64,000 bases of DNA from Hirudinaria manillensis (taxonomy: Eukaryota > Annelida > Clitellata > Hirudinida > Hirudinidae), in contig CM067529.1 in NCBI GenBank assembly GCA_034509925.1, positions 2,890,501 through 2,954,500 of the forward strand, written 5' to 3'. Made by a program: the position numbers and the translations under genes. This document shows, one piece after another, positions 1 through 22,180 of the stretch; the stretch's first letter is position 1, and each line of letters starts with the position of its first letter. A model generated the notes under the pieces. That model was not told where the DNA came from. It saw only the letters and a program-made list of their open reading frames with translations, and searched no databases.

Positions 1-72
1 TAATATTAATTATAGTTTATTAAAGCTTATTTTAAACTCAACGGGTTGAAACTTTCAATCAAGGAACGTCAG

Positions 73-1092
73 GATGCCAACTGCGACCTGTCAATCCAAG
101 CACAACCCGATCAATCGGTTCAGTTTCAATCAGTGGCCAATCTCTCATACTTGGCAATCAAGAAGAACGGATTGATTGTACTATCAAGAAAATCAAGTCG
201 AAATACAAAGATTCAAGTTTACTGCAAAGTAACTCATTAATGATTCTAACCAAATGATATTATAAATAATACTTATTATAAATAACAAATACTTATTATA
301 AATAACAAATACTTATTATAAATAACAAATACTTATTATAAATAACAAATACTTATTATAAATAACAAATACTTAATATAAGTAACAAATACTTCATATA
401 CATAACCAATTCTTATTATAAATAACTTAATTATAAATAAAAACTTAATTTTAAATACTAAGTTAACTTAATCCTGTTAATCCTTAATCCTGTTAAGGGT
501 ACGTTTAAAAGTGGAAACATAGTTGCTTTCGATACCTCCGTGGTTCAATCAGTTTCCGTGGATCACGTGGTAACAGGTTTGGGGTCAAGAGATGACCTTT
601 CATCGTACTGGGTGGTCCATAAAATCAGGAAAAGCATCTACTCGTTTGAGTCTCAGTTGCATAAAAATCAATTCTTATCACTGGATCGACAAGAACTTTT
701 TGTGGATATTTCGGTGAGAATTAATCTTGGGAATTAAATTTGAATTCAATATTTTAATCGTTTATTATTTTTTTCTATTAATTTTTAAATTAAAACATTA
801 TATAAACTCCTCAAAAGCTCTATGAAAATTAGCTAGGCTAGCATTTTTAGGTCTTCAATTTGAAAATCTGAAAAGTTTGGGATCCATGTTTGAGCCCATA
901 TTTTTAAGGGTTCGAAAGGCGAACCGAACACTTGCTTCATAATCCACAAAATGAAGCTTCAGGGGCACGTGACCCTGGAATCCAAAGTCCACCCGGGTGT
1001 AATGCTGGGCGTATCGACAGGGGGTACCATGGCGGGCATGAAGGAAGCTGATAAGAGAAGGAATATCGTTCTTTACCCTCGAGTTGTGAAAT
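73..1092 (+). other. Probable beta-trefoil (FGF/fascin-like) module in exons 1-3
   Basis: These exons do not read as PLAT. They carry an internal repeat. Exon 2 has WVVHKI followed by FES and a FLSLD hydrophobic step. Exon 3 has FIIHKM followed by LES and MLGVS. Exon 1 has VQFQS followed by YLAIKKNG. The spacing between the exon 2 and exon 3 units is about 46 residues, typical of trefoil repeats; exon 1 to exon 2 is about 79 residues. Fold assignment is inference from the pattern of hydrophobic residues and glycines. Confidence 0.45.
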
Positions 1093-4000
1093 GTTGGTTT
1101 AAAACTTTGTAATAAATATTTAGACAAACAATTAAAGCAATCGATGTTTTTTTTTAAGTTTAACATTTAAACTCATATTTATTTAAAAGTAAATAAAAAT
1201 CGTATAATTTAATTGATTGTAATTTCATCTAAATGATTGAAAATAAATAAATAAATAATTGATGATATTTCAGTCAAAGAAATGCAAAACAAATCGAATC
1301 AATTGACAGCTTTTCAATTCTCGAAAAGCGAACGAACAATTTTATCGCCAGTTCTCATCAATTCAGCGAGTGATGGAAGAGGAAAAGGATGGATTGGAAA
1401 GTCCAACTCATCCAATTACGTTCCTTCAATCAGCAGGCATCAATCAATAGATTTGATTGACGATGACGTCAGCAAAGATGGAGAACGGACTGACGGAGAT
1501 AATGATGATGACGATGATGACAAAGATGATGAAGACGACGACGATGACGATGACTCAATGGAACGAGAGGCAGTGGACGATGAAGGTGATGGTAGTGATG
1601 ATGAAATAAGTCACGTGCAGTCCTCAAAAGATAAACAATCTGGTCAGTATTGGAGATGTTATAGCTATTAATATAAATATTTTTTAAGGGAAATAATAAC
1701 AATGATATCAATGATAATGTTCACGAATTTAATAAAAAAAATAACAAATATTGTAAAAAATAATAAATATTTTAATAGATTAATTTATTTTACCTCAAAT
1801 GAATTTAAATCATTTCAGAATGGCGCGTTGCCGTGGCAAATGAGGAGTCTCTTGCAGATGCCGACGTATGTCTGTACGTCTGCGGTTCTCAGGGTTCGTT
1901 TGGTCCGGTTGTCCTTGGGGGGCCGGAAGGGCACCTGTTCGTTGCCGGCAATGTTGACGAGTTCAAAGTGGGCAGGACTAAGTGTTCATGAATATTGATG
2001 AGTGGATTTACAGAAGCTGTAATGCCTTATAATTGAATTTATAGTTATATTATATTTATATTAAATTAAACATAAATATTTATATATTATATTTATATTT
2101 ATATATTATATTTTATATTTATATAAATATTTATATAAATATTTATATTTATATAAATTTATATATTATATTTAAATAATTTGAATAATAAATGAATTTT
2201 TTCGATTGCTTATTTATTTTCCTTTTACAAAAGTAGCCCAAAAAAATATCAAACAATCGTCCAGAAAGTAATCCAACAAATGACGTAAATAAATTTAAAG
2301 TTTCTCATCACATCCATCATAGGTGAACATACCGAACAGGATTGGAAGCATTTCCAAGTTGAGACTGGAGTTGCAGTCACGTGAGTCTGTGCTCCGTGGA
2401 TCCTGGAAAGTGGATACGGTTTGAATTTGTGTCGATTAAATGCACGGACAAATAAATAAATAAATATGTTAATTAATAAATGTATATATTCATTTAATTT
2501 AATATTAATTAATTTTAACAACTGCAGCATTTAGAGTTAATTAAATAATTAATATATTATTTAATTCTAACAATATTTCATTTATTTATTTATTTTTGTT
2601 TTTAAATTGGATTTCTTTATGTTTTAATATTGAAAAGTTATTTATAAACAGTTATAATTTAAAATTTATTATTACGTTAATTATTTTACATTGAGGCGTA
2701 TAATTCCCATTCCAAAGGTCAAATTGCGCCACGTGACTACAGGAGTGACCTTGAAGTTTAAATTTCAACGGTGGCTATCAAGGTCAAAGGATGATGGAGA
2801 CCTGGTCAGGGAACTTCCGGTGTTGCTTCCACACCTGCCTTTCAATCCAGGTCGTCTGAAAAATTATTATTATTAATGAATTTTCTGTAATTGAAGCATT
2901 ATTAATTTGTATTTTTATGCAATTTATAATGATTAGTAATTTCAACAACTGGAACAAGTAAATTAAATTAATTTATTATTAAATTTTTAAATTAATTGAT
3001 TAATAGGAATAATTATTAAATTAACTATAAATAATAATTAATTAACATATATGTTACTAATAAAAGAATTTATTTATTCTATCATTAATCTCTTAAATAT
3101 GTAATTATTAAGCTTTATTACGGTATTAATTTGTAATTTAATCTATTTACAAGTGGTCGTCTACGTGTTGAGTGTATCAACTGGAAGACAGGAAGGAGCA
3201 GAAACGAATGGAAATGTTTTCCTGAATTTATTTGGCACCAGGGGGAGCACCGGAAACAGACTCCTTCACAAATCGAACAACGAAGTTAAATATTTGAGGG
3301 GACAGGTGCTTTTTAAGTTGACCTGTTTTTGGAAAACATGTTTGAGTTTTAATTAAAATAAATTAAAATTTAATATAATTTTAATTAATTTAAATAAATT
3401 TTTTTAAATTAAATTAAAATTTTATATAATTTTAATTAATTTAAATAAATTAAATTTAATATAATATTATTTAATTTAAATAAATTAAAATTTAATATAA
3501 TATTATTTTATTTAATTAAGAACTAAAACTGCTAGGTTTAATGAACGGGTAATTTACATATTAACATTAAATAAATAATCTCATAATTAAAACAAACAGC
3601 AATAATAAGATGGAAGCTAATCACGATTTTTTTAATTACTAGATTTACAATTATTGAATTTGTTTTTTAAATTAAGGAAAATTAACATTCACACGATCCT
3701 AAACAGACGGATATTTTCAAAATGGAGGCAGTCTATCTCGGTCGTTTGAAGTTCCTCATCATCGCTCACTTGACCTTAGATCACGTGACCAGTGGAGGGA
3801 GTTGGTTTTGCGAGCAGATCCTGGTGTCTTTCAAGAGTCCCGGAAAAAGTGGAAGCATGGAGAAAGTCGTCTTTCCATGTCACGAGTTGTTTTAATTAAT
3901 TAATTTATTTATTAATTTTAATTAATTTATTACTTATAAAGTTTATAATTTGAGGTTAAATTATTTAAAGTTATTTTTAAAATGTTTTGATGAATTTATA

Positions 4001-7000
4001 AATTTATTTAAAAACTTTCAAGATGGCTGACTCATGGTCCGGGCGAGCGAAAGATTAAAAAAATTCTTAGGCCAAGTGTGTTGAATATTTTGTAAAAATA
4101 TTAAAATTTAATTTTATTATTTTGCTCATTTATTTTATTTTTAAACAAATCTAACCTGAACTTTCAGGAAAAATATGGCGTCCATCGAAGATTCCAGTAT
4201 TCATGAAATCCACGTTGTCTCTGAACGCTGGAAACGAACCTAAACTGGTAGAAGTTTCGTTAATTCTAAATATTTTAAATTTAATATTAATTAATTAATT
4301 ATTTAAAAAAAAATTAAATTTCAAAATTAATTACAATTTAATCACTAATTTCCCATTAATTCAGTCGAAAAACATTAGAAACAACATGGAAGCCACGAAC
4401 CTGAAGAGAACTCTTTCTGTGTCCCAACTTTCAAACTTTGGCGGGAAAGGCGAAACACGTCTGCCTTTTTCTGACCAATCACGTAACACCACAATTCCAA
4501 TAGTTCGACTAAAATCACTCGAAACATTTTCAGGTGCATTTACAGCTTTTATTATTGCTACAATTTATATATTTAATTAATATTTACAGATTATTTAATA
4601 ATATTTACTTAATACTTATAAATTATTTAATAATATTTAATTAATATTTCTTAATTATTTAATAATTACAATTAAAGATTGCTGCGTTGATCTTATCATG
4701 TTTTTTTTAAATTTTTATTTCGCAGACGTCACGTACCAGGTTCAAATTCACGCGGGATTCGAGTTTGGGGGTTGCTTGACCCCGGGTCGTTTGTTTGTTG
4801 TTTTGAAAGGAAAAGCAGGCGACTCGGGGAGGAGGAGTTTGAAGGGGTCAATTGAGTGCAATGAAGGAAGGTCGTTGTTACGAAGAGGGACGGTAAGCCA
4901 CGTTATTATAAACAAATAATAATTATTATATTAATAAATATTAATTATATTAATAAATATTTATTTTATTGACTATATTTTATTAATATAATAAATGTTT
5001 ATTATGTTAATGAAAATTAATCATTTTAATAATTATTCAATATAAATATTAACTGCTTGAATTAATTATTAAATTTGTTGTTTCTAAATTAATTATTAAA
5101 TTATTAAGTATTTTAAAATAATTAGATTTTATTATTATTATTATTGTGAACTGTTTTATTTTGTAGGTTGAAACGTTTCTAGTGGAATCTATTGATTTAG
5201 ATGACCTAAAAGAAATACTACTTGGTTTTGATAACGATGATGATGATGATGATGATGACGATGACGATGTTGGTGATGATGATGATGATCAAAGGTGGTT
5301 CTTGGAAAGGATTGTCGTAAGATTGAGAAAGGTCGAACACGAAAAGATGTGGACTTTCACATACGGAAAGTGAACATTTAGAGTTAATTTTAAAATTTAA
5401 AAAAGATTTAATAAATTAATAATAATTGGTTAATTAGTTATTATAAATAATACTAGTTAATTTTAAATTAAAATATAAAAATGTTTTAAACCTCTTCTTA
5501 GATTTTTAGTTAGAAAAAGAGATAATCCTATCATGGAGTCACTCACCCCATCGTCCGACAAAGGTCTGTTTCTATTGGTTGACACGAATTTACTCCAGCC
5601 AATCACAAGGAGGGTTTCCATTTCAGACCTGTGGAAGGTTTACATAAGAAATGGAGTGAGCAGGAGTGACGGAGGTGGAGTGAGGTATCCTGGTGACGTA
5701 TTTTTGAGTTTCACAATCTGCGGTGAAGATGAAAATTCAGCAAGAAATTGCATCAAAAGTTGGAAAGGTGAAAAAGTCGATGATAGTGAACATGGAAGCA
5801 ATGAATTTATGGTGAGTTATGATTGTAGTTATTGTATTATGATAATGGTTTTTATAAGGATATTTTGTAAATTTTAATAATAATATTTCCCAATAATTTA
5901 AATGTTAATAATATTAATTATTATTATTATTTATTTGTTAAATTAAACAAATGATGATTTTATTTCAAACTTTCAAAAAATTCATTTACCTAATAAAATA
6001 TATTTTGTCATTTATCTAACAAAATAAAATACTTAAAAGTATTCGTAATTTCTTCAGCTCCATCTGTCGGAAGGATTCGGATTCATTTACAAAATGAGGT
6101 TCCATCTTGAATGCAACTCGTCAAAGGATTGTCACTGGTGCATTGAAAAGGTTGAATTAAAGATGGTGGCATAATTATAAGAAATAATTTTATAAATAAT
6201 TTTAAGAAATAATTTTATAAATAATTCTAGGAAATAATTTTGGAATATTTATATTTTACAGATAATTCTGGAGCATTTACATTCGAATAAAAAATATTTT
6301 TTCGAATTTAATGACGAATTGTTCAGAAATGAACATAATGACGGATGCATGGAATTACCCACGAAATACGTGATGAATGGATGGATGGATGGATCTGGGG
6401 ATGTTATCCCAGTTGATCTGCTGGAAGGTAATCTTATTATTTATTATATTATTAATAATAATAAACATAGCTAATAAGCTATAATAATTAATAATATATT
6501 GTAATTAATAATATAATCTAATAATAATATTATTATATTTATTATGTATTTTTATAATATTATCAATATTGTATTCAACCTAAAATTATTTTATGACCAT
6601 ATGGATATGTTGGAGTAATATAAATAATAATAAAAAATATAATATAATTAATAAATAATAATAATAATAATATATTCGACAGTGGTGTCTTATGAGGTGC
6701 TGTTTTCCATTTCGGATGGAAAAGAATATTTTCTGGAAAACAAGGAAATGTTGATAAAAATAATTGGAATTAAAGGTGACTCTGGCGTCAGGGAGTTGAA
6801 ATGGTTCAGGAAGCAGGGAGCCATTGGAGAGCCAGATGGAGTTGTTGAATATTTTAAATTTAATTCATTTATTTACAAATATTTATATTTTAAAATATTA
6901 CAAATTTAATTTGTTGTTGTAGAAGGATCAATTTATATAATTTATCTAATAATAATAATAAAACTAATATTAACAAATAATTATCTGATTAGGTCAGTAG

Positions 7001-9040
7001 CAAGCAAAAATAACGTTGAAATTCATAAACACATAATTTACTTTCAATATATTTATTCACATTAAATTATTTAATTTAACCAAATAACATTAAATTTAGA
7101 AATAAGAAAAATAAATTTAAAAATAAAAATAAATTTGAAAATAAAAATAAATTTGAAAATAAAAATACATTTAGAAATTAAATCGTCAAAATAAAAAAAA
7201 AACAAAAATCCTCAACCAGATATCATTCGTCGTATCACGTGTTGTCGACCTGACGGAGCTGGAAAAAGTTGTGATTTATTTGTTGGAGGAAGGAAATATT
7301 TTCCTGGAAAAACTGGAAATTAAGAAGTTCCCTGGAGAAGATGCTGTCAGATACGTTGCCAACTGCAAATGGTGGGCGATTTAAATAATTTAAATTTAAT
7401 TTTTAAATAATTTTTAAAATTAATTTTGTTTGATTTTAAAGAAATTATAAAAAATCGTAACCCTAATGTAATGCAATGAATATTTGGATTTTTAATTAAA
7501 ATAATAGGATTTTAGTGCTATTATTATTATTACAAGTTTTAGAACCAATTATGTAATTATTAACAAACTATTTAATTTAAATAATTTAATAAATAATATT
7601 TTATAATTAACTTAGACTTTTTTTATATATGTTACTAATTTCATTATTAATTGCATTAAATTAAATTAATAAATAATAAAATAATTAAATTAACTGATAT
7701 AAATTATAATAATTTAATATAACGAATAATTTCAGTCGATTGCAAGAACCTGCCCATAAAAGGGAGTTCAACTTTTCACTGGTTAAGGAAGAAGTGATTG
7801 ATCAATCAGAAGATCCGATTGAAGAAGATGGTTGAATTTTTAACTTATTTTCAATTTATTTCAAACAAATGTGACGTTCAAAATTTAATTATAATTTTAA
7901 TTATGATTATATTACGTCATTCATTATAAGTTATCCTTATGGGAGCTTAAAAGACATTTCAATAGATACCAAATGAGGGTGTTTAATACAAAAATATGGT
8001 TAATAAATAAATAAATAAATAAATAATAAATATATAACAAATAAACAACTAAATAAATAAATAATAAATAAATAAATAAAGCTAAAGAATTAAAAACTTT
8101 GTGACCACCCAATCGAAATGATCGTTCAGGGTGGCTGTTGTATTTGTTCCTCACAAACCTCCCCAACGTTGCCATGGAAACTGGGGATGAATTGAAGGCC
8201 ATGATCTCTGAAACGTTTAGACGTGCTGTCCTTTATTCCATCCATCAATCATTTTTCCCGCTCAAACTCGAAGACTTGAAACTCGTCTGCTTAACGACTT
8301 GGACGAACGGACCAATTGCGAAGTTCAAAGTGCATTTCATGTTTTAAAGCTTTTGATTTATTCAAATTATTAATAATAAGTAATATTAATAAGAATAAAT
8401 AGTAAATAATAATAATAATAAATAATAAATATTATTATTATTATTATAAATAATTATTTTATAATTATAATTTATTATTATGTATTTCCAGTCAGTCAGA
8501 TTATTAATGTTAACAACAATTATTTATTAAAAATTAAAATCTTGCAAATTTTATTTAAAATTAAAAGTTGGTCGGAGAAGAATTTCCAACGGAATTCTTT
8601 AAAATTAGAATCGGATTCGAAGAAATCACAAAAAGCAAGTTGAACCACCTCAGCTTGGACAAAGTATTTTAATTATTTTTATTATTATTTTTAAAATTAT
8701 TTGTCTACTATTGACATTTATTTTTTATATTTTATTTTATTATTATTTTTATTTACATAATAATTTTATATTAGTTTTATTTTTGTTATTTTTAAAATTA
8801 TTTGTCAACTCAATGATTTTTTTTAGCTTCCTATTTATGGAAATAATTTAAAATTAAATTAAATAATTTAAAATTAGATTATATTTTCAATTAATTTCCG
8901 TTTTAAATCCAAATTAATTAATTTCAAAATCGCTTCGTAATCGAACGTAAACATTTTATTCCTACAAAAAGGCTTTTCTGAAACATACATCGGCTGATCT
9001 GTCATACGAGTTTTCCAACAACAACAACAATAACAACATT

Positions 9041-9073
<33 letters not shown>

Positions 9074-10582
9074 GACGACGACAACATCAGTAGCCTCTCC
9101 AGCTCCATGAAGGACGGATGGTTGGAATTGCCAGCCAAGTTCAGAGGTTCATCGATCCATGGAAACGAATCCAATCTCATAGAAATCCAGTCACGCATGA
9201 CTGGAGTTCCGGGTAAATCCGTGAATCGATTTTGTCGATTGAAAGCGCTTTCGGTTTTTAAGAAATTCTTATAGGAACATTTATGTTTTGTAAAAATAAA
9301 ATATACAAGTGTGAATAATATAACTACTGGAATAAATATTGTTAAAATAACAACTATTTCAATTTTCTTTCCAATTTAATTTTAAAATAAATTTTAAAAA
9401 TAATACTTTTAATAATAATTAATAAATACTGTAATTACTACCAATTTGTAAACAATGGCAACAACCTCTAAATTCTCAAGCAGTACTTAAATACCTGGTA
9501 ACAATAAGAACTGACGTCATGAGGAACAGATTCACACCTGGATTAACTTCCGATCAGGTGTTCTTCGTGGACATCCACGGGGAGAATGGAAATACCGGAG
9601 TCAGGAAACTATTTCCAGAGAGTTCCGATTTATCTGTGGGTGTTAATTATTTCAAGTTAATTATTAAATAATTTTTTAATATTTATTATTAATAAATTAA
9701 TTTTAAAATTAATTATTAAATAATTTGCAAATTTTATTATTGAATAATTTATCAAATTAAATAATATTTATAAAAAAAATTGATCACTATATAATTTATG
9801 AAATTGATAAAATTAATTGTTTTATTAATCGAAATTTATTCAGATGATAAATAAAATTAAATACCTGCACGTAATATACGCATACAATCACATCATCACA
9901 ACGTCCTCCTCCTCCTCTTCTTCCTCCTCCTCCTCATCATCATCATCATCATCGCTCCACCTAAATGCCTTCCAGGAGATGACATTCCAGGTGCACGCAG
10001 TCGATTTGTCAACTTTGAGTTGGATTCTGATTGGTCACTTCGCTGGACAAGAAGTTGTTGATGAAAGTGTTGCGGTTGTTGAAGAAACTGTTGCAGTTGT
10101 TGAAGAAAGTGTTGCGGTTGTCGGTGGTGTTGCCGGGAATTCCGAGTGTCGTTGTTTCCTCGTTGATGTTGTTGTTTCTTGTTGGTCACCGACAGGAAGT
10201 AAGATGAGCAGCCATTTCCGGCACAACGGGTTTGTTTGTTTAATATTAATTATTTAATCAATAATACAATTAAATAATTAATTTAAATAGTTTTAAAAGT
10301 AGTTATTATAATAAAAAGTAGTTAATTATAATTATAGAAAATTTCTGTGAATTAATATTATTTTATATAATTATTTTAAACTCATTAAATTTTAATATAT
10401 TTCTATATTTTTTTTAAATTTAAATTTACCATTAACTTAAAATTACGCGATCAATTATTTTATTAATAACGGTTAAAATAATATTTTAAAAAATTAGTTT
10501 TTAATTATTTATTTATTTATTTAATTATTTATTTATTTATTTAATTATTTATTTATTTATTTAATTATTTATTTATTTATTT

Positions 10583-10613
<31 letters not shown>

Positions 10614-13600
10614 ACAAGCTGGTTAGAACCTTCAAAGGATGGCAACTATTCGCAGTTTCTGCATCCGGAAGTTGATGGAATCAACGACAACGTGATTCCA
10701 ACTGTTGATTCTCTGCCCTTCATTCGTAAGCATTTCCAGTCAATCAGTTTATAAATTTAATTATATTTAATTTATTATATTTTATTATTATAATAATAAT
10801 AAGTATATAAATATAATTGCTGATTTTATTAATATTATTATTAATATTATTACTATTATTATTCAAAGTCTTCGTCTTTACGATCACTATTGTCTAGTGA
10901 GTAAGATTTTAATCAGAAAAATATTTTTTTTGTGAGATTTAATTTAATTTCTAAATGAATAAATAAATGAATAAATAAATAAATAAAATAACTTCCCTTG
11001 AAATGTCACAAGCTGACGAATGGAAGGGCACCATAAGGACGGGCAAGTTCTACGACAGCGACGACGACGACGACGACGATGACGACAACAAAAACAACAA
11101 CAACAACAGCAGCATCTTGTACATAGACGAGTATCCTAGAAAGCCAGCCAACTACAAACAACTGCCCATTTACAAGTCCTACCCCGAGCCCTTGAAAGGG
11201 GATTTGTTGATGGTGTTGTACGATGTCATTGGGTGCACTGAGGTCATCCAGGTGCAGATGACGTCAGAGAGGCCGCTGGATTTCGAGCCCGATGAAGAGA
11301 TTGAATTTAAGGTGATGAAATTATGACGTGTTGGAGTTAATTATGATTATAATTTTGTTTTTTTATTACTTTTTATTTGTATGTGTTAAGGTTATTATTA
11401 TTATTATTACTATTATTATTATTATTATTATTGCTGTTGTTGATGCAAATGTTTGGCAACAATATGTTGTTATTACTATTACTGTTAAAAATAACAGTCT
11501 AAATATTATTTATCGGATTCGTATTAATCAATTTGGTTTTTATTTAATTATTTCAGAATATTTACAAATAAAAATATTATTAACGGAATTACGGAATTTT
11601 AAATCAAAAACTTTAAAATTTTTTAAATTCCCAATTTAACAAGATCTTAGTTCCGAGAATTATCGACCAGCCTTACAAAATCAGAATCGGTGCCAGCGGT
11701 GAGACTACAGAGAACTGGATCTTAGGAAATGTAGGTCGACATCGAAAACTAGGTCAGGTCTCTTAGTTCGACCTCGTGACCTTTCAACTTTTGACTTCCC
11801 CGAAGGTCACCATCGAAGATCCGACCAATGGGAACGTTTATAAATTCGAGTTCGAAGAGAGATTGGTTTGCGATGACCTTTTGGATGGATGGATTGAAGC
11901 TTCGTTGTCTGAGTTCGAGGGAAGCGGAAGTTCAGAAGAGTGCATGAAGACTCGCATACCATGTGAGACGATTATGATGATGATTGTAATGATTGTAGTT
12001 GTTGTTGTGATTGTGATGTCTGAAGGTCGGTGTTTGGTGATTCGATTGAGAGCTTTTTTTTCTTATCTCTAGTTTTAAATTTATTTCACAACAAATGCGA
12101 TGACGACGACGACGACGACGTAGATGATGAGGCTGTTGTTGTTGTTGTTGAACTTGTTGAAGTTTTAAAGTGAAATATTTACATAAAACAATTGAAAATA
12201 AACTAAATATTTGAGAAATTCATTCATATATTTTACTAAAAGGCGAATAAAAATGTTTAATTTATTTAAAAAAGAAACAAAATAATATTAATAACAGAAT
12301 AAACTTCATTAACCTCCAGCAATCCTCTACAACGTCTTCATCCACACCGGTCTCAGGGACGAACCGTCACGTGACCTGAAAGTGTCCCTCAATCTGATTG
12401 GCCAGCAGGGAGACACCGGTATTAGGAGACTTGGAGTACCTGTTCATCGATCAACGGAACAGCCTTTGTTTCAGACGGCAGAGGTTTTTACCTGCTTTTT
12501 GTTTGTTTTTCACTGCAAATTGCAAAACAAAAATAATGTTTAATTATGTTAAAATTGACAAATTCTAAGGCTTTATATTTAAAGTTAAGATGCATTTCAG
12601 AAGATGCATTTTTTAAAATTAATATTTTAAAGAATATAAACAAATTTTAATTTTGTTATTAATAAATAAATAAACAAATATTATCAAACAAATTTATTAA
12701 TAAAAATTTTTAATTACATAAAAATAAAAAAAATAATTATTTTTCCAGGTCGACCATTTCCAGATAGAGGCGGTTGACCTGATTAATATTCATGAGATTT
12801 CCATCCATGCCCGATGCAGCGAGAGATGTGATTGGTTGATAAACAAGGTCATCGTAAACTGGGACGACCCACGTGGTCACCAGGAATGTGAATTCTTTGT
12901 CAACAGGTTTTCTTTAGATTTTATGGTTGATTCAATTGTTTATTAAATTATATTTTTTTATTATTTCTGAATTTTATTTTATTTTTTTTTTTGATAATTT
13001 TAAATTAATATTTTTATTTAATTTTTTTGAAAAACCGAAGAAATTATTAATGATGATGATATAATATTAACTATGTATTATAATTATGTATTATTATTAT
13101 TATATACGACAAAATTATAACATATATTATCTATGCCACAAGTCAGGCATCACAAAAAGCTTGTCTTGTCAACAAGACAACCTGCAAGTTGAGTTACATT
13201 GCTGTTGCAATCATTATCATGGCACGAAAGAAGAATTATAAATATAATTATACATGAATTATAATTATAAATATAATTATACATGAATTATAATTATAAA
13301 TATATATAAATTAGCCTTGCAAGTTAAAAGTGAAATAAGTGCCTGAAATTGTTTCATCAATCGTGAAATTACGAGCAGAGCGTCTGATGGGGTCATGGAG
13401 TGTAATTTCAAGATTTTCGCACTAAAAATGGCTTAAAATGCCACTTAATTGGTCGGAAATAATATTTATTTTTTGATTTATTGATTAAATTGATTTAATT
13501 CCAATTAAATTTCTATTTCAGCCTCTTGAAATTTCAAGAAAATGCCGATTATCTGAAAAAGTCGTTCGAATTGAAAAATTACAAACCAGGTATTTGCATT

Positions 13601-14569
13601 TAATTGGTCATAATTTCTGGTTAATTATTTCTAAGTTCATAATTTTGATGAATGAGCCTGGAATATTATTCGTACGTAGGTCGAAATCGTGTGTGGCATT
13701 CCTTCTAATTAGGCTTTAATTAGGTTTGCTATTGTATCACCATCGTCGTCGTCGTCGTTGTTGATGTTGATGTTGTTGATGATGATGATGATGATGATGA
13801 TGTTGATTTAAGATCTTATTCACGATCTTCCATCAGATACGTGGAATTTACACCTGGAATACGAGAACGCAAGAAGGAGAAGAAGAAGAAGAAGAGGAGG
13901 AGGAAAAACTGATGGCAGTGATGATGATGATGATGATGATGATGATGTTGCTACTGGTGGTGATGCTGATGATGATGACGACGATGATGGCAATGAGAAT
14001 GGAGTTCATCCACTGAAGGAAATAAGGCTGTTCGTCTACGGAGACAGGGGATGGTCCAAAGAACTGAGACTTTTTGCTTCGCTTGAACGCTTGGATGGTC
14101 ACTCAAGAGTGGAATATCAAGTCATTTCACTTTATATTTTAGAAATTGAAACATTTAAATGGAATAATAAATGTTTAATTTATTTAATTGATAATTTCAA
14201 CCATGAAAATAGACTGCGGCCAACAATCTTAAATAATAATAATAATATTATTATTAATTAATAATAATTATTAATAATTAATTTAAATAAAGGTTTTTAA
14301 TTTTGTAGTTCGAAAATACATTCTATCCAACCATGGGAAACTTTTACAAGGTGAGGATTGGAATTCCAGACGAGGTTGAAGTCGGTCCAACGAAGCATGA
14401 AATCGGAAAAGTAACGCTTTCAAGATGAATTTTAATAATTATTTTTATAACAATAATCTTTACGAAATGTTTTAAAATATAATTTAGCAATTAATCTACA
14501 TTTGATGACAATAATAATAATAATAACAATAATAATAATAACAATAATAATAATAATAATAATAATAAC

Positions 14570-14606
<37 letters not shown>

Positions 14607-15940
14607 TATCGAAAGATTTTCTTGCGAAACGAAAGTCGAGAGAGGACTTTCACCTTTCAAGTGAACGGATGCGTGGAAAAAAATGCTTCCAACGACGGCT
14701 GGAAAGAGGCACCTGCTGTGCCGTTCATTGGAGACGACGTTGGTGGTCTGGAGACCGCACACGTGGAGGCCTGTTTGGCGGGTACCTGTCGAGGTTTGCT
14801 CTTTTTTTTTGCTGTCTGCTCATTGATTTTCAGAGAAAAATGTTATTGCTATGGGCAAGTATTTAATTTGAATTAAATATTATTTTAAATGTTTTAAATA
14901 TAATTTAAAATATTAATCATCATTAATATCATTATTTCGTATTATTATTATTACGAACGTCGAATGTCATTGTAGCTTTAATTTAAATAATAATAAACAT
15001 TTTTTCCAACCAACAAATAATAAATCAATAAATAAAATTGATTTTCTTTAAAATTCTAAAAAAAAAAAGTTCTCACGTACGGGGTTCAAGTACAAACCGG
15101 AAGTGCCCCAAATTCGTCGACCGATGACGTCATCTTCGTGGAACTTTTTGGAACAAAAGGAAGCAGTGGTCGAAGGAAACTCTTGGAAAACTTGAGTGGA
15201 AATTCCAAGAAATTCGTCAGAGGGCAGGTGGACGTGCATCGATTTTTATGAGATTTTAATTCAAAATATCAATTAATTGATAATAATTTACTTTTTATTA
15301 TTATGTTTTTCGAATGATGCCCTCTTATCGATCTTCATTCAATCATTGCTCCACCCTCATTTTGTTACTATAAATGACTAAATACGAGTGAATGGATGGG
15401 CCTCATGAATATTCAATCCATCCACGTGACCAGTGCATTCGTTAATTTCAATCAGTCAATCAATCAATCAATCAATCAATCAACCAATCGATCGATCATT
15501 CAATCAATCGATCAATCAATCAACCAATCACTTCATCAAAAATAGCTGGATGTTTTCCTCCTGGAAGCAGTTGATCTACACCGCTTGCAGAGGATCCACC
15601 TCGGACGGTTGAACCGTGGCAACGGCGGATGGTTGGTTGACATGGTAACGGTTGTTGTCCCTGGCGACAACACCTCAGTCACAAACTACAAGTTCAACTG
15701 CTCCTGGTAACGTCTTGCTGATTAATGCCATTTTAATTCAAGTCGTAATTAGTAATAAATAAACAAATAAAATATTAATAATTTTAATATTATTAATAAT
15801 AATTTTGATAATATTATTGTTAATAAAATAATAGACAAATTAAGTCCACTAGTGTGTTTTAAACCAGCTGGATCTCCAAAGAAGATCCAGTCAAAGAATT
15901 CCTGCTGACGGAAACATCAGAAACGACAGAAGGAAGTTAA
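73..15940 (+). CDS. LOXHD1: LOXHD1-like PLAT-repeat protein, 3' part (38 exons, 2064 residues visible)
   Basis: Exons as read: 73-228, 498-713, 909-1092, 1274-1642, 1819-1967, 2323-2418, 2718-2850, 3154-3305, 3707-3885, 4023-4075, 4168-4247, 4365-4533, 4726-4892, 5167-5369, 5514-5811, 6058-6150, 6262-6427, 6683-6840, 7220-7371, 7736-7830, 8130-8329, 8568-8663, 8972-9212, 9484-9635, 9976-10229, 10619-10725, 11013-11311, 11644-11730, 11806-11962, 12320-12483, 12749-12906, 13522-13589, 13837-14120, 14309-14410, 14616-14781, 15070-15227, 15546-15706, 15868-15940. Every junction is GT-AG and the sum is a multiple of three. Eleven PLAT/LH2 domains follow a probable beta-trefoil and an acidic linker. 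PLAT domains are beta-sandwiches that bind lipid or protein at membranes; vertebrate LOXHD1 is a PLAT array of hair-cell stereocilia. The start lies left of the window. Boundaries of exons 1, 10, 11 and 18 are the least certain. An AATAAA lies at 16096-16101. Whether this is the LOXHD1 orthologue or a lineage-specific paralogue cannot be told here. Confidence 0.85.
261..420. repeat. 20-bp AT-rich tandem repeat in an intron
   Basis: About six near-perfect copies of a 20-base unit (TAAATAACAAATACTTATTA) lie between exons 1 and 2 of the PLAT gene, decaying toward the 3' end. Confidence 0.85.
1274..1642 (+). other. Low-complexity acidic linker exon of the PLAT gene
   Basis: One exon of about 122 codons joins the trefoil-like module to the first PLAT domain. 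Its first half is Ser/Asn rich. Its second half is Asp/Glu rich, encoded by imperfect GAT/GAC repeats (about 1495-1560). It ends in phase 1 and supplies the Glu that precedes the first PLAT Trp. It has no recognisable domain and is probably a disordered spacer. Confidence 0.65.
1819..2850 (+). other. PLAT domain A (exons 5-7)
   Basis: The first exon opens with WRVAVANEES. The second carries the conserved core (GSISKLRL, then GSWKVD). The third reads VKLRHVTTG, then FQRWL and DDGDLVREL, which is the typical PLAT C-terminal strand and Trp-Leu motif. Intron phases are 1-0-0. Confidence 0.8.
3154..4075 (+). other. PLAT domain B (exons 8-10)
   Basis: This is a canonical PLAT. Exon 8 reads VLSVSTGRQ, GNVFLNLFG and GSTGNRLL. 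Exon 9 reads TDIFKMEAVYLGRLK, GSWFCEQI and VVFPCHE. Exon 10 completes EWLTHG. Intron phases are 1-0-2. The donor of exon 10 could be 4075 or 4077. Confidence 0.85.
4168..4533 (+). other. Inter-PLAT linker (exons 11-12)
   Basis: Two exons of about 82 codons carry no PLAT motifs. They are rich in Ser, Asn, Lys and Arg. The reading frame of exon 11 is chosen because it joins in phase to both neighbours. This linker sits where the alternating PLAT order is broken. Confidence 0.5.
4726..5369 (+). other. PLAT domain C (exons 13-14, tail in exon 15)
   Basis: Exon 13 reads YQVQIHAGFEFGG and GDSGRRSL. Exon 14 reads VETFLVESIDLDDLK, then an Asp run of GAT/GAC repeats (5236-5288), then QRWFLERIVV. The acidic run sits in the loop just before the conserved Trp. 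Intron phases are 1-0-2. Exon 15 fuses the tail of C with the head of D. Confidence 0.8.
5632..6427 (+). other. PLAT domain D (exons 15-17)
   Basis: The domain opens at WKVYIRNGVS within exon 15 and continues GDVFLSF. Exon 16 carries the HWCIEK core. Exon 17 reads KKYFFEF and DGCMELPTKY. Internal introns are phase 0 and 0. The head lacks the G-D/S-T/S-G-x-R motif of canonical units. Confidence 0.75.
6683..7830 (+). other. PLAT domain E (exons 18-20)
   Basis: Exon 18 reads YEVLFSISDGK and GDSGVRELKW. Exon 19 reads FVVSRVVDLTELEKV and NIFLEKLEI. Exon 20 completes a Cys-containing tail. Intron phases are 1-0-2. The donor of exon 18 is placed at 6840 from frame and may be a few codons off. Confidence 0.75.
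8130..9212 (+). other. PLAT domain F, divergent (exons 21-23)
   Basis: The head (GWLLYLFLTN) and core (FFKIRIGFEE) are weak matches. The tail reads LSYEFS, then an Asn-rich microsatellite insertion (about 9017-9072), then DGWLELPAKF. Intron phases are 1-0-0. Identity rests on position, exon pattern and the DGWLELP tail. Confidence 0.6.
9484..10725 (+). other. PLAT domain G with an internal 7-residue repeat (exons 24-26)
   Basis: Exon 24 reads YLVTIRTDVM and GNTGVRKLF. Exon 25 reads FQVHAVDLSTLSWILIGH, then a Val/Glu-rich heptad-like repeat (10054-10116), then a degenerate strand. Exon 26 reads WLEPSKDGNY. Intron phases are 1-0-2. Confidence 0.75.
10499..10612. repeat. ATTT-based tandem repeat
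   Basis: Copies of a 20-base unit made of ATTT tetramers with one AATT step lie directly upstream of the acceptor of exon 26 of the PLAT gene. They act in place of a normal pyrimidine tract. Confidence 0.8.
11013..11962 (+). other. PLAT domain H (exons 27-29)
   Basis: Exon 27 opens with EWKGTIRTGKFY. A run of Asp then Asn codons follows (11055-11109), then LKGDLLMVLYDV. Exon 28 holds YKIRIGASG and NWILGN. Exon 29 reads VYKFEFEERL and DGWIEASL. Intron phases are 1-0-0. Confidence 0.75.
12320..13589 (+). other. PLAT domain I (exons 30-32)
   Basis: Exon 30 reads YNVFIHTGLRDE and GDTGIRRLG. Exon 31 reads FQIEAVDLINIHEI, then CDWLINKVIV. Exon 32 is a short tail. Intron phases are 1-0-2. This is one of the clearest canonical units. 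Confidence 0.8.
13837..14781 (+). other. PLAT domain J with an Arg/Asp insertion (exons 33-35)
   Basis: The head opens WNLHLEYENA. Eight consecutive Arg, then Gly and long Asp runs follow (about 13870-13990, encoded by AGA and GAT repeats). The domain resumes EIRLFVYGDRGW. Exon 34 holds FYKVRIGIPD. Exon 35 reads TFTFQVNG and NDGWKEAPAV. Intron phases are 1-0-0. Confidence 0.75.
14508..14604. repeat. AAT/ACA-AAT microsatellite
   Basis: Nearly uninterrupted AAT triplets with scattered AAC lie in the intron before exon 35 of the PLAT gene. Open frames through it on both strands are simple-sequence artefacts. Confidence 0.9.
15070..15940 (+). other. PLAT domain K, C-terminal (exons 36-38)
   Basis: Exon 36 reads YGVQVQTGSAPN, then IFVELFGTKGSSGRRKLL and FVRGQ. 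Exon 37 reads LDVFLLEAVDLHRLQRI, then GGWLVDMVTV. Exon 38 reads WISKEDPVKEFLL and ends at TAA. Intron phases are 1-0-2. This is the most canonical domain of the array. Confidence 0.88.
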
Positions 15941-17767: not shown

Positions 17768-18261
17768 GAAATTAAATTTGATAAAAGAAAGACGTTCAAA
17801 CTAACACAAAGACATAAAATAGCCTTTAAGAAGTGCAAGGTCGGGATGGTGTCGCAAAAGAGTTTTAATTTCATTGAAGCATCGCAAGCGGAAAAGTGAT
17901 TTGAATTAACTCGCACTTTTCTTGCAATAACTATTGTTTACATTTACAAAATGTTTATAGTTCACTATTATTGTTCACGTGGCTTCTGATTGGCCAGCTG
18001 AATTGCATTCACCAATGTGCTTGGATCATATGACCTGACACTCACAAGACATTGTCATCTCAATTAGTTTATTATCACGCATCGAAATATCTCACAAAAA
18101 TTCCAGAAACAATAAATTGTCAAAAAGAAAAATACAATCTAGAATATAAAAATATAATCTGGTTTGCATGACTATAATTGCAGTGGAAAATAGGTGAGCT
18201 AGTGGTGCTTAAAAAATTGCAAGAGAACTTAATTTCAGAATGTATCCTAGGAATGTTACTA
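17768..18261. other. Intergenic, ALG14 upstream / MFSD1 3' UTR
   Basis: About 500 bases lie between the ALG14 start and the MFSD1 stop, both on the minus strand. A minus-strand AATAAA at 18068-18073 could end the MFSD1 transcript. The ALG14 promoter must lie in this segment. No coding signal seen. Confidence 0.6.
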
Positions 18262-21200
18262 TCAACATTCAGGATCCCTGCGACCCAAAAGAGGTTCAGA
18301 CTCGTCCGCTTCTTCGTTCTGAATCGATCCGTTATTGGCTCCGACTTCGGTCGTCTTGATCATCTCCTTCTGGGATTTGCTCAAATTCAGGACTTTATTC
18401 TGAAAAAAATTGTTTTTATTTTAAATTAAATGTTTTTGTTTTAAATTGAGGTTGACAAAAATTAAACCAAAAAGATGAATCAATGCAACGTCTATCTAAG
18501 TAAAGATGAAATCAGATAAAAATTATATAATTTTTAAAGATTATTTAACTTTGAAGTACTTTACTCATAAAAGTGGTAAAAGTTGAAAATTGAAAACTAC
18601 AATAATTAATAAATAATTAGTAATTAATTAATAAATAACTAATAAATAAGGTCCTCGGGAAATAAACGAATTCTAAACGAAACCAACCCTGGTCCTGTCA
18701 AAAACGTTGAGAAGAAAAGCGGTGAAGATGCAGAGGACGTTGTTGCCCAGGAGGAAGAGCATCACGTACTTCCATCTGTCCTGACTGCTTTCCCTTTGAA
18801 AAAATTAAGCAGTTAATTTATGATTAACTTTAACTATTTATTAATAATAGTTATGGAAATGGTGTCGTTAGTAATTATGTACATAATTACATACATCCTA
18901 ATTACTGAGTGCTTCCAACATCATATTGTTACAACTACTGCTAGCCAAATGGGGCCAAACAAATTAACTAATATGCAATTAATATGCAATTAGGATATAA
19001 ATAATATAAAAATATACAATTCAAACTCACTGGCTATGCTGATCTCCGTGTCCCAAAATGGCTCCGACGCAGATGTTGGAAATTCCAATTCCGACCATCT
19101 GCAGGGAGGTGGTGAGACCCATGGCAGTGCCGACTGCGGACTGCTTGATGACCAGTGGAATGGATGGCCACATGCTTGCCTGGTTGAAGAGGAGATCAAG
19201 CAATTGAACGATTGAAATTTAAAGGCATGATTGAAACAACAAAGGATTGACATTAATTAATGACATTAATTCTATGAGAAGATGTGAAAGAATAACAGGG
19301 CCATGTGTTGCCATTACAACTGAAGCAAGACATCATCATCATCATCATCACTCACAGCTGCAACGGAGTACGTGAAGCCGAGCCAGAGGGTGAAAATGAG
19401 CGGGTAGATGTGGGTGAATGCCAGGAGACCAAAGACTGGGGTGGTGAGGACGGCACAGGCCAGGGAGAGATATCCTCTCTTGCCAACATAGTCCTGCAAT
19501 CGAGTTCAAAGACCACAGTGATTATTACTAATAATTAAAAACTATTTCAATTTATTAATACATATTAATTAATTAGTAATAATGGTTATTTTGTCAACTC
19601 ATCCAATATGTTAAAGGGTTGTTTATTAAAAACATAATCACGTGACTGTCGAGAAGTCGTCCAAATTAAAATTAATTCGCCTCAAGTCAAACCAAAGCTC
19701 ATCAACAAACGAAAGCCACTCACGATGAGGTATCCTAGTCCTGGTGAAAGGACCATGGACAGGTAATAAACAGCACCTGCCATGTAAGCGGCCTGGTCCT
19801 GGGGGAATCCGTACTTGTCGTGGATGAACTTGCTGGATGGATGGATGGAAAAGAAAATGGTTGAGTGAGTTTAATGGTCGCCATGTTTACGTTAAACTTA
19901 TTATAACTCGTGATGTGATTCATAAGCATTTGATCTTACAAGTTCAACTGTAATATGTTATTTTGAGATTCCAACCATTTGATTGTATTAAAATAATTGT
20001 TATTAATTATCTCTAAAATGTTTATAAATTGTTATAATTTATTTCTAATTTTCTAACTTTATGACAATCCACTACAAAATATAAGTTAGTATTCAAAAAA
20101 TTAGAACCTGGCATCTGCAACAAATGGAAACACTCCGTTGTAGAAGAACATGATCGTCAATGCAATCAACCAGTACAGGGCGTTGAAGTTCTTTATGTCC
20201 GTGAACCTCTGCGAGCGGGGAATTTAATTTATGTTAATTTATGTTAATTTATGTTAATTTATGTTAATTTATGTTAATTTGCACGCTTCATTAACATTAT
20301 CAACTTAACTCTAACCTTCCATCAATTTAACGACAACATTGTTAATGTTTCAAATTGTTGGATACAAAAATTGGCTCAATGTTTATTTCCTTTTGATGTT
20401 TCCAATTTTGACAAATCATATATCATATATGAAATCATATATCATATCATATACCATATATCATGTATCATATCATATATCATATCGTGTATCGTATCAT
20501 TTTTATCCCCACCAGTTTCTTCGAGTTCTCACTGCCCACTTGATCCAGGCCAAGCTGCTTCAGTCCGACTTTGTCCAAAATGCCCACCGCGATGGCAGCC
20601 AAGAACCCGGTAGTGCAAAGGATGGCACCTGTTTTAGCGAGGCATTTGAACAGCTAATTAAAAATTATTTAATTAAATATTAATTAAATTAAATTAATTA
20701 ATTAAATATTTAATTAATTGCAAAAGCAAAGAAACTGCTCTCTTGTTATCATTGTGCCAGATTATGCACCTCAATAAGGTGATAAGAATGGATGAGTTAA
20801 GGCAATCATTGACTCGATTAGTTTTCATTGCTGTTGTTTCATCGAAGTCATCCTTGAAATGAATTGAAAACAAAAACCCGACGATTACCTCCCCAGAGGG
20901 TCCACTGGATTCCAAATCGGTCTGCAAAGTGGACGGTGATCAGGAAGTTCAGAACGCTTCCGAGTCTCGAGAAGGCCAACGTGACTCCGAAGGCCATGGC
21001 CAGCTCCTTGTCCTTGAACCAGAAGGCAGACAGTCTGCCCTGAACAACTGTTCAACGAGACAAGTGTTTTTCAATGTTGCCATGCAGTTGATAAGCAAAA
21101 AAAAAAATCATAACTTATATTTTCAAACTAAAATTAACACATTAAATTAATGTTTCTCATTTAAATATCAACTATCAACAGAATTTTAGTTCTGGCAAAA

Positions 21201-22180
21201 CTTTACTAACTGGTCAGGGAGCCATTACCGGCTCCAAACAAAAGTCTTCCGAGAAGCATGACCGGCAACATGGCCGGAGTTCCCTTCAACAGAGTCCCGG
21301 CAGCGAACAGACTCGATCCGAGAACGGTCAGAGATGAAAATACGAATGCTCCGACTGAAATGGACACAAAAAAATGTTGCCAATAACTAACAAGCGGAGG
21401 GTTTTATGATAAGATTCACGAGCCTCATAGTGATGTTTAATTATTTTTTAAGTGACATTTTCATGGCCGATTAGAATTATTTTCATAAATTTGGTTTAAA
21501 TCATTAGAAAGTAGCGGTTCTCACTTTGGTTCCCCACTTTGTCGATGAAGAATCCGGCACCAATTACAATGACAGCATTCCTTTTCAGAAACGTTAAAGT
21601 CTTAAAATGCTTGCAGGTCTAACATCATAAAGCGTTGAAGATCAAAATGAAACTCACGTCCATGCGTAAACAGCATAAAGGAGATTGTAGTTTGCCGGAC
21701 TCATATCCAAGCAGTCGTGGTGGGTGCCATCTCCAGTTTGATTGACTTGTGATGAGTTACACTGATCAAGACAATTCACAAAGTGTGAATCAAATGTATA
21801 GTATTAATGGAACACAAATCAATAAGTCTTACTTGGAATTTTTCCTGCAAGACACTTGGCATATCAAAACAGAAATACGACCCAAAGGTGAGCAGGCAAT
21901 TGAGCACAAGAACGACAAACCTGAAAACAGCTGGAAAAAAATACTTCCATTTAAGCTTACGTCTGAGAATAGCTTCAAATGTGAAGATATCTAACGTTTA
22001 GAAGCATGTAGGGCTGCCATATCGACGAGTGAAAAAGATCGAATGAATTCTAAACTCTACTGGCTTCAGGCAAATGAAAGAACATGTGACTTATTATTTA
22101 TTTGCGTACCGGTAAATGAACCACCCACAATTAGAACCGATTTTATTTCCCAAAATATTTATTTTTATTTCTGCGAGCAT
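18262..22180 (-). CDS. MFSD1: MFSD1-like lysosomal MFS transporter
   Basis: Thirteen exons: 22180-22110, 21920-21833, 21761-21658, 21580-21525, 21354-21211, 21047-20889, 20628-20513, 20208-20108, 19832-19724, 19493-19356, 19179-19031, 18793-18688, 18399-18262. They sum to 492 residues (human MFSD1 has 465), all in phase. MFSD1 is a 12-helix major facilitator of lysosomes that exports dipeptides with partner GLMP. Diagnostic stretches are LTFGSYFCFDMPSVLQ, NYNLLYAVYAW, GAGFFIDKVG, GRLLFGAGNGSL, SAFWFKDKELAMAFG, RLGSVLNF, GVFPFVADASKF, DYVGKRG and SVGTAMG-like SAVGTAMGLTTSLQ. Two N-glycosylation sequons (NSS, NQT) sit in the first luminal loop. Only the first exon, which ends NCGWFIYR, is less certain. 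The C-tail holds an acidic dileucine ESEPLL. Confidence 0.9.
20231..20280. repeat. ATGTTAATTT tandem repeat
   Basis: Five exact copies of a 10-base unit lie in an MFSD1 intron, 22 bases beyond the acceptor of the exon starting at 20208. Confidence 0.9.

Follow-up and report, generated by a model that had tools for sequence, protein, structure and literature searches.

The PLAT domains of a long tandem array in Hirudinaria manillensis carry two alternating sets of introns, which raises the question of how old the two kinds of domain are and how the array that holds them was built. The window, that is, the whole stretch of DNA analysed, covers 64,000 nucleotides (GCA_034509925.1, contig CM067529.1; C4:2890501-2954500) of a genome of 148 Mb in 23 contigs. 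It contains 11 PLAT units, A to K, of a gene referred to here as the window gene. Since PLAT matches extend upstream of the window, the flank and the other PLAT loci of the genome were taken in, and the order in the gene is U1, U2, trefoil, A, B, linker, C, D, E, F, G, H, I, J, K. The other loci compared are C6 near 11.03 Mb, C2 near 14.06 Mb on the minus strand, and C4b near 2.29 Mb; two single-PLAT places are also present in the genome alongside these multi-PLAT loci. The pattern is well marked, its parts are probably older than first thought, and it is best read, with reasonable though not full confidence, as the product of two PLAT lineages that probably both predate the gene and were multiplied together in blocks.

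The curated model of A-K was guided by a composition gene finder, which scores codon and base composition, and by a spliced-profile aligner. It features 34 exons and 33 introns, all 33 with GT-AG ends, and a single open frame of 1,761 codons that runs to a stop at 15940; the open frame was a criterion of curation and is therefore no independent proof of the model. The G+C content is 0.45 in exons and 0.18 in introns. The phases of the last introns from A to K are 0,2,2,0,2,0,2,0,2,0,2, the series that the original prediction had read from this DNA and that is borne out on the curated model. So regular an order of types has a chance probability of 11/462 = 0.024 for A-K and of 13/1716 = 0.0076 when U1 (as type 0) and U2 are added. 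The claims that leading introns are of phase 1 and middle introns of phase 0 also stood, the former in 10/10 units that have a leading intron (D has none) and the latter in 11/11 units, but the middle introns lie at different positions in the two types. These are named type 2 (U2, B, C, E, G, I and K) and type 0 (U1, A, D, F, H and J).

Both internal introns differ in position between the types, beyond the difference in phase. Written as profile position/phase (e.g., 50/0, 101/2), the introns of type 2 are found at about 50/0 and 101/2 and those of type 0 at about 55/0 and 84/0, with U1 lacking the second and the 55 site in F and J placed by curation alone. A profile built from paralogues only gave matching sets, one position lower, in U1 (first intron only), U2, A, B, C, D, I and K, and G, H and J agree at the last intron. 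H has a middle exon of 87 bases, equal to those of C6_8 and C2_7; that of A is 87 bases with the curated donor or 96 with the donor chosen by the aligner, and those of D, F and J are 93, 96 and 102 bases. A slide of one middle intron by 15 bases was considered as the origin of both and was rejected, because the second intron also differs and C6, a different gene, has both sets as well. A one-base slide is possible elsewhere, in C6_3 (L011 9436-9558) and also C2_3, where an intron at 49/phase 2 is one base from 50/0.

The motifs follow the intron sets. Among the 38 PLAT units of the genome covered by the tree and the motif counts, 13 in the window gene (A-K, U1, U2) and 25 others, the head motif that had been proposed as the mark of the phase-2 units was found in 7/7 type-2 units, 0/6 type-0 units and 1/25 other PLATs (8/38 in all). 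The one outside match is C6_6, which is the single other unit mapped with 50/0 and 101/2, and U1 has a near form in which the final arginine is not matched. The tail form assigned to the phase-0 units held for A, D, F, H and J; it did not extend to U1, and one match elsewhere, in C4b_1, lies mid-domain. An aromatic-K-x-R stretch (I-S-K-L-R in A), drawn up as a pattern after viewing the alignment, is present in all 6 type-0 units and in C6_8, not in C2_7.

The tree of 38 units, in which long rows were flagged and the bootstrap had not settled, separates the 6 type-0 units together with C6_5 from the 7 type-2 units with support of 95/95, so that the members of a two-domain block lie apart in it. 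The claim of two subtypes marked by several concordant characters was upheld by intron positions and motif, and the tree check keeps the types apart. Pairwise Z averages 5.0 among type-0 units and 9.6 among type-2 units, against 2.4 for pairs that cross the types (permutation p 0.00125). The split could still be a long-branch artefact, although E, G and I are long too, yet they group with type 2, and after removal of seven long rows the 4 remaining type-0 units still stand apart (93/93). When the types were analysed in separate trees, support was low and H had a branch length of 10.

The other PLAT genes bear on the age of the two types. The C6 locus has 10 units with 9 or 10 different intron sets (43/1 of unit 4 and 36/1 of unit 5 are doubtful), and C2 has most of the C6 intron sets in equal order, its first unit being a weak match. 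These loci (L011-L014) hold two LOXHD1-like genes that share most intron sets in order, and C2 has a closely alike neighbour pair, C2_5/C2_6 (100/99). Both window intron sets occur in C6, in one unit each (C6_6 and C6_8), so the subtypes look older than the window gene and probably predate it. The C4b array resembles the window gene in its tandem PLATs and, in the composition model, its phase-1 leading introns, whereas its units carry one intron set instead of two, with 63/phase 0 in 5/5 units found, making it a one-type array. Among the four multi-PLAT genes, the alternation is found in the window gene only.

We infer the copying of blocks, with their sizes and the order of events, along the following lines. 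The type-2 units would have retained the head motif while the type-0 units diverged; both lineages probably existed before the window gene, as one unit of each in the LOXHD1-like C6 gene suggests. Blocks holding both types would then have been copied in tandem, giving the alternation, and one copied block probably held three units (2,0,2), leaving C out of step. Because phase-1 introns flank the units and the linker, except at C/D, any number of whole units could be copied with the frame intact. The array probably, though not demonstrably, grew in two-PLAT blocks. The mean similarity at lag 2 is 6.9 compared with 4.1 at lag 1, and F-G with J-K is the only copied pair that the tree recovers in both halves, with F-J at 97/88 and a weak G-K at 20/82. 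The tree without the longest rows joins U2 to C (93/90) and A to D (97/82), which fits a copy of the triple U2-A-B as C-D-E. This triple copy is put forward as a suggestion only: E is most like C rather than B, D has its best scaled pairwise match in U1, and the tree puts B with C6_1. This reading suggests that intron positions may mark domain lineages in an array close to saturation at the protein level, and that the sequence in which subtypes follow one another may give a clue to how large the copied blocks were.

Several results weigh against the reading of two lineages multiplied together. Type 0 alone is monophyletic in 48% of bootstrap trees, with long branches, and adjoins C6_5 rather than C6_8 and C2_7. 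Type 2 is not one clade, 4 changes being needed, with B placed with C6_1 and I with C6_6. Approximately unbiased (AU) tests leave the sister pairs D+E, F+G, H+I and J+K unrejected (p 0.24-0.45); A+B is nearly rejected (p 0.058), U1+U2 is not rejected (p 0.556), and the highest window Z of U1 is to its neighbour U2 (20.9). The lag-2 similarity compared with shuffled order has p 0.06 for 13 units and 0.087 for A-K, and even versus odd lags have p 0.29. An earlier position-mapping profile gave the intron sets directly in U1, U2, A and K and, in B, the middle intron only; it contained these same 5 window units, so their recovery is in-sample. The aligner also misread the middle intron as phase 1, in J with the paralogue profile and in F with the window units added.

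The alternation could in part be an artefact of splice-site choice in a divergent gene. At 7/11 last introns the frame can also be kept, with another phase, by an alternative splice pair no more than 36 bases away, units E, F, G and J have no Pfam PLAT match, and the open frame was used in curating. At C, D, F and K, however, all other phases within 36 bases of the curated sites break the frame, and the series was largely recovered by routes as separate from the curation as could be arranged. The composition finder was run with a generic codon table and with a table trained on 13 window exons, and the last phase agrees in 8/11 units in each case, the generic table failing at B, F and J. The aligner was run with a profile restricted to C6, C2 and C4b units and with the trained codon table, and again with the other window units added to the profile; coding scores were included because plain local profile search (leave-one-out) was too weak for E-J. 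With the paralogue-only profile the last phase agrees in 10/11 units, with F failing, A, E and I each having one differing splice site, and the position of E shifted; the last phase of F is correct once the other window units join the profile. Exact junctions were recovered in 17/25 and 18/25 cases in the two runs, the donor of B having beforehand been set to that of the aligner, and extra introns were inserted into several units. On this balance an artefact is highly improbable.

Two other histories accept the series and explain it differently. The original prediction had the array grow strictly by duplication of a two-PLAT, six-exon block, with C as a unit whose type-0 partner was lost or replaced. 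The repeated order 0,2, the F-J and G-K groupings and the excess of lag 2 over lag 1 are in favour of this, but the lag-2 and even-odd comparisons given above do not establish it. A lost partner is also not needed, as a three-unit copy accounts without loss for both the grouping of C with U2 and that of D with A, and C may be out of step for that reason. The linker at 4168..4533 on the plus strand (exons 4168-4247 and 4365-4533), which has phase-1 introns on both sides, revealed no PLAT pattern or remnant by reading, no search having been made. Strict block growth is unlikely. It is more improbable still that units were copied singly and acquired their intron sets and motif by later gains, losses and divergence. 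U1 and U2 are each other's highest or near-highest window match (raw Z 20.9), the AU tests have little power against neighbour pairs, and C4b shows that one-type arrays occur; however, two introns and a motif must then have changed jointly in alternate units several times, and the C6 gene also has both intron pairs.

What kind of gene carries the array is a related question. A doublecortin domain lies upstream on the same strand at C4:2885924-2886091 (Pfam E 2.6e-12 on the predicted exon), and an FGF-like beta-trefoil lies between U2 and A, matching the Pfam FGF family PF00167 with 34.4 bits and E 2.6e-8 as a joined piece. The trefoil region at 64..1092 on the plus strand (exons 64-228, 498-713 and 909-1092) begins upstream of the window and comes from the composition model only; for its first part, a search of solved structures gave nothing better than E 0.38. 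The composition model alone links the doublecortin and trefoil domains to A-K, and it also joins doubtful exons still further upstream. The gene appears, on this model, to be made up of doublecortin, PLAT, beta-trefoil and the PLAT array, an unusual domain make-up, and a single literature search pairing "doublecortin" with "PLAT domain" yielded no papers.

The assignment of the window gene to LOXHD1 in the original prediction is doubtful, since the doublecortin domain and beta-trefoil that it apparently has make a plain LOXHD1 improbable. The C6 and C2 genes look more LOXHD1-like, and lipoxygenases, polycystin-1 and Rab6-interacting protein 1 were listed when C6_6 was searched against solved structures. 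In PLAT domains, calcium is bound at the acidic positions of GTD and HD. That of GTD is kept in 15/18 LOXHD1-like units, 3/5 units of C4b and 4/13 units of the window gene, and that of HD in 17/18, 1/5 and 1/13. Doublecortin domains bind microtubules, and a doublecortin domain in front of an array mostly without the two acidic positions suggests a scaffold tied to microtubules, perhaps a ciliary one, a doubtful assignment. Tentative too is the proposal that a piece of a LOXHD1-type array with two old PLAT lineages, like those of C6_6 and C6_8, was captured into a doublecortin/beta-trefoil gene and multiplied as a block of two kinds, one kind staying near the ancestral PLAT and the other diverging. 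If so, the gene would hold an obligate two-kind PLAT array, and its intron positions would record domain ancestry better than its sequence.

LOXHD1 has 15 PLAT repeats in mouse and human, is found in stereocilia and is linked to human DFNB77 (PMC8051682 and PMC7049443). A partial set of human junction phases was derived by arithmetic on the splice variants in PMC9196635 Table 1, PMC7049443 Table 3 and the tables of PMC6826470. The junctions labelled as lying between PLATs in PMC9196635 Table 1 (c.511, 1270, 1654, 2437 and 3514) are of phase 1 in 5/5 cases. Those labelled as lying inside PLATs are of phase 1 (c.610 and 3061) or phase 0 (c.1809, 4212 and 5085), and among the unlabelled ones 245 is of phase 2, 1938 of phase 0, and 3748 and 4375 of phase 1. 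The use of c.1938 as an exon end follows a figure legend that names a K646K splice site variant, and c.1255+3 and c.1270+4, given in two papers, may be one junction in two numberings. The proposed phase table of LOXHD1 orthologues was thus filled for part of the human gene: the phase-1 junctions between PLATs agree, and no 0,2 alternation is visible in this partial map. As far as these sources go, LOXHD1 and the window gene have in common a long tandem PLAT array with phase-1 introns between units; unlike LOXHD1, the window gene has 13 PLATs of two alternating kinds, apparently with a doublecortin domain and a beta-trefoil in addition.

Bjorklund et al. 2006 (PMC1553488) indicate that a two-domain unit is apparently the commonest in repeat expansion, so the growth process here would be an ordinary one and the array adds a new example of a known way for domain arrays to grow. 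It differs from the process described there in that the members of the block differ in both intron positions and motif, and the term "intron phase" is absent from the text of that paper. Among the titles and abstract beginnings of the matches listed, none concerned alternating PLAT subtypes.

Units A to K all lie on the plus strand. Upstream of the window, U1 (type 0) is at C4:2887306-2888203 with 55/0 and no last intron, and U2 (type 2) at C4:2888614-2889466 with 50/0 and 101/2. Unit A (type 0) is at 1819..2850 (exons 1819-1967, 2323-2409, 2718-2850) with 55/0 and 84/0; the aligner prefers donor 2418, with the phase unchanged. Unit B (type 2, motif GTRGSTGNR) is at 3154..4075 (exons 3154-3305, 3707-3885, 4023-4075) with 50/0 and 101/2, and its donor at 3885 was adopted from the aligner in place of an earlier curated donor. 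Beyond the linker, unit C (type 2, GKAGDSGRR) is at 4726..5550 (exons 4726-4892, 5167-5369 and the start of 5502-5811) with 50/0 and 101/2, and exon 5502-5811 is common to the end of C and to unit D (type 0; 5629..6427, further exons 6058-6150 and 6262-6427), which has 55/0 and 84/0. Unit E (type 2, GIKGDSGVR) is at 6683..7830 (exons 6683-6840, 7220-7371, 7736-7830) with phase 0 followed by phase 2; the paralogue profile aligns its introns at 42 and 92, the profile with window units at 52 and 98.

Unit F (type 0) is at 8130..9212 (exons 8130-8329, 8568-8663, 8972-9212) with curated phases 0 and 0; its last junction, 8663/8972, was recovered only with the window units in the profile, and its middle junction was set by curation alone. 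Unit G (type 2, GENGNTGVR) is at 9481..10725 (exons 9481-9635, 9976-10229, 10619-10725) with phase 0 and then 101/2. Unit H (type 0) is at 11013..11962 (exons 11013-11311, 11644-11730, 11806-11962), its last intron being 84/0 with the paralogue profile and its middle junction found with the window units. Unit I (type 2, GQQGDTGIR) is at 12320..13589 (exons 12320-12483, 12749-12906, 13522-13589) with 50/0 and 101/2 and a last acceptor set by curation. Unit J (type 0) is at 13837..14793 (exons 13837-14120, 14309-14410, 14616-14793) with a last intron of 84/0 and a middle junction from curation alone, and unit K (type 2, GTKGSSGRR), which includes the stop codon, is at 15070..15940 (exons 15070-15227, 15546-15706, 15868-15940) with 50/0 and 101/2.

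At the curated cut-off of 23 bits, Pfam PF01477 recognizes U1, U2, A, B, D and K; C (20.3 bits), I (21.9) and H (14.7) fall below it. The profile gave no match for E, F, G and J, which were placed by frame, intron set, motif or likeness to other units. Low-complexity stretches (poly-D, poly-N and a 21-base repeat) lie within PLAT exons at 5236-5289, 9016-9086, 10054-10121 and 13919-13989.

Minor observations were made around the compared loci. At L015/L016 (C4:2280001-2300000), TPR-rich predicted exons are followed by the five C4b PLATs, the TPR join being made by the composition model only. In roughly the last 2.2 kb of L014, upstream of the C2 gene, a unit of about 400 bases recurs in tandem, and with it an open frame that looks spurious. 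Adjoining the PLAT gene in the window, exons on the minus strand at 18240-22000 resemble, by reading alone, a transporter of the major facilitator type.
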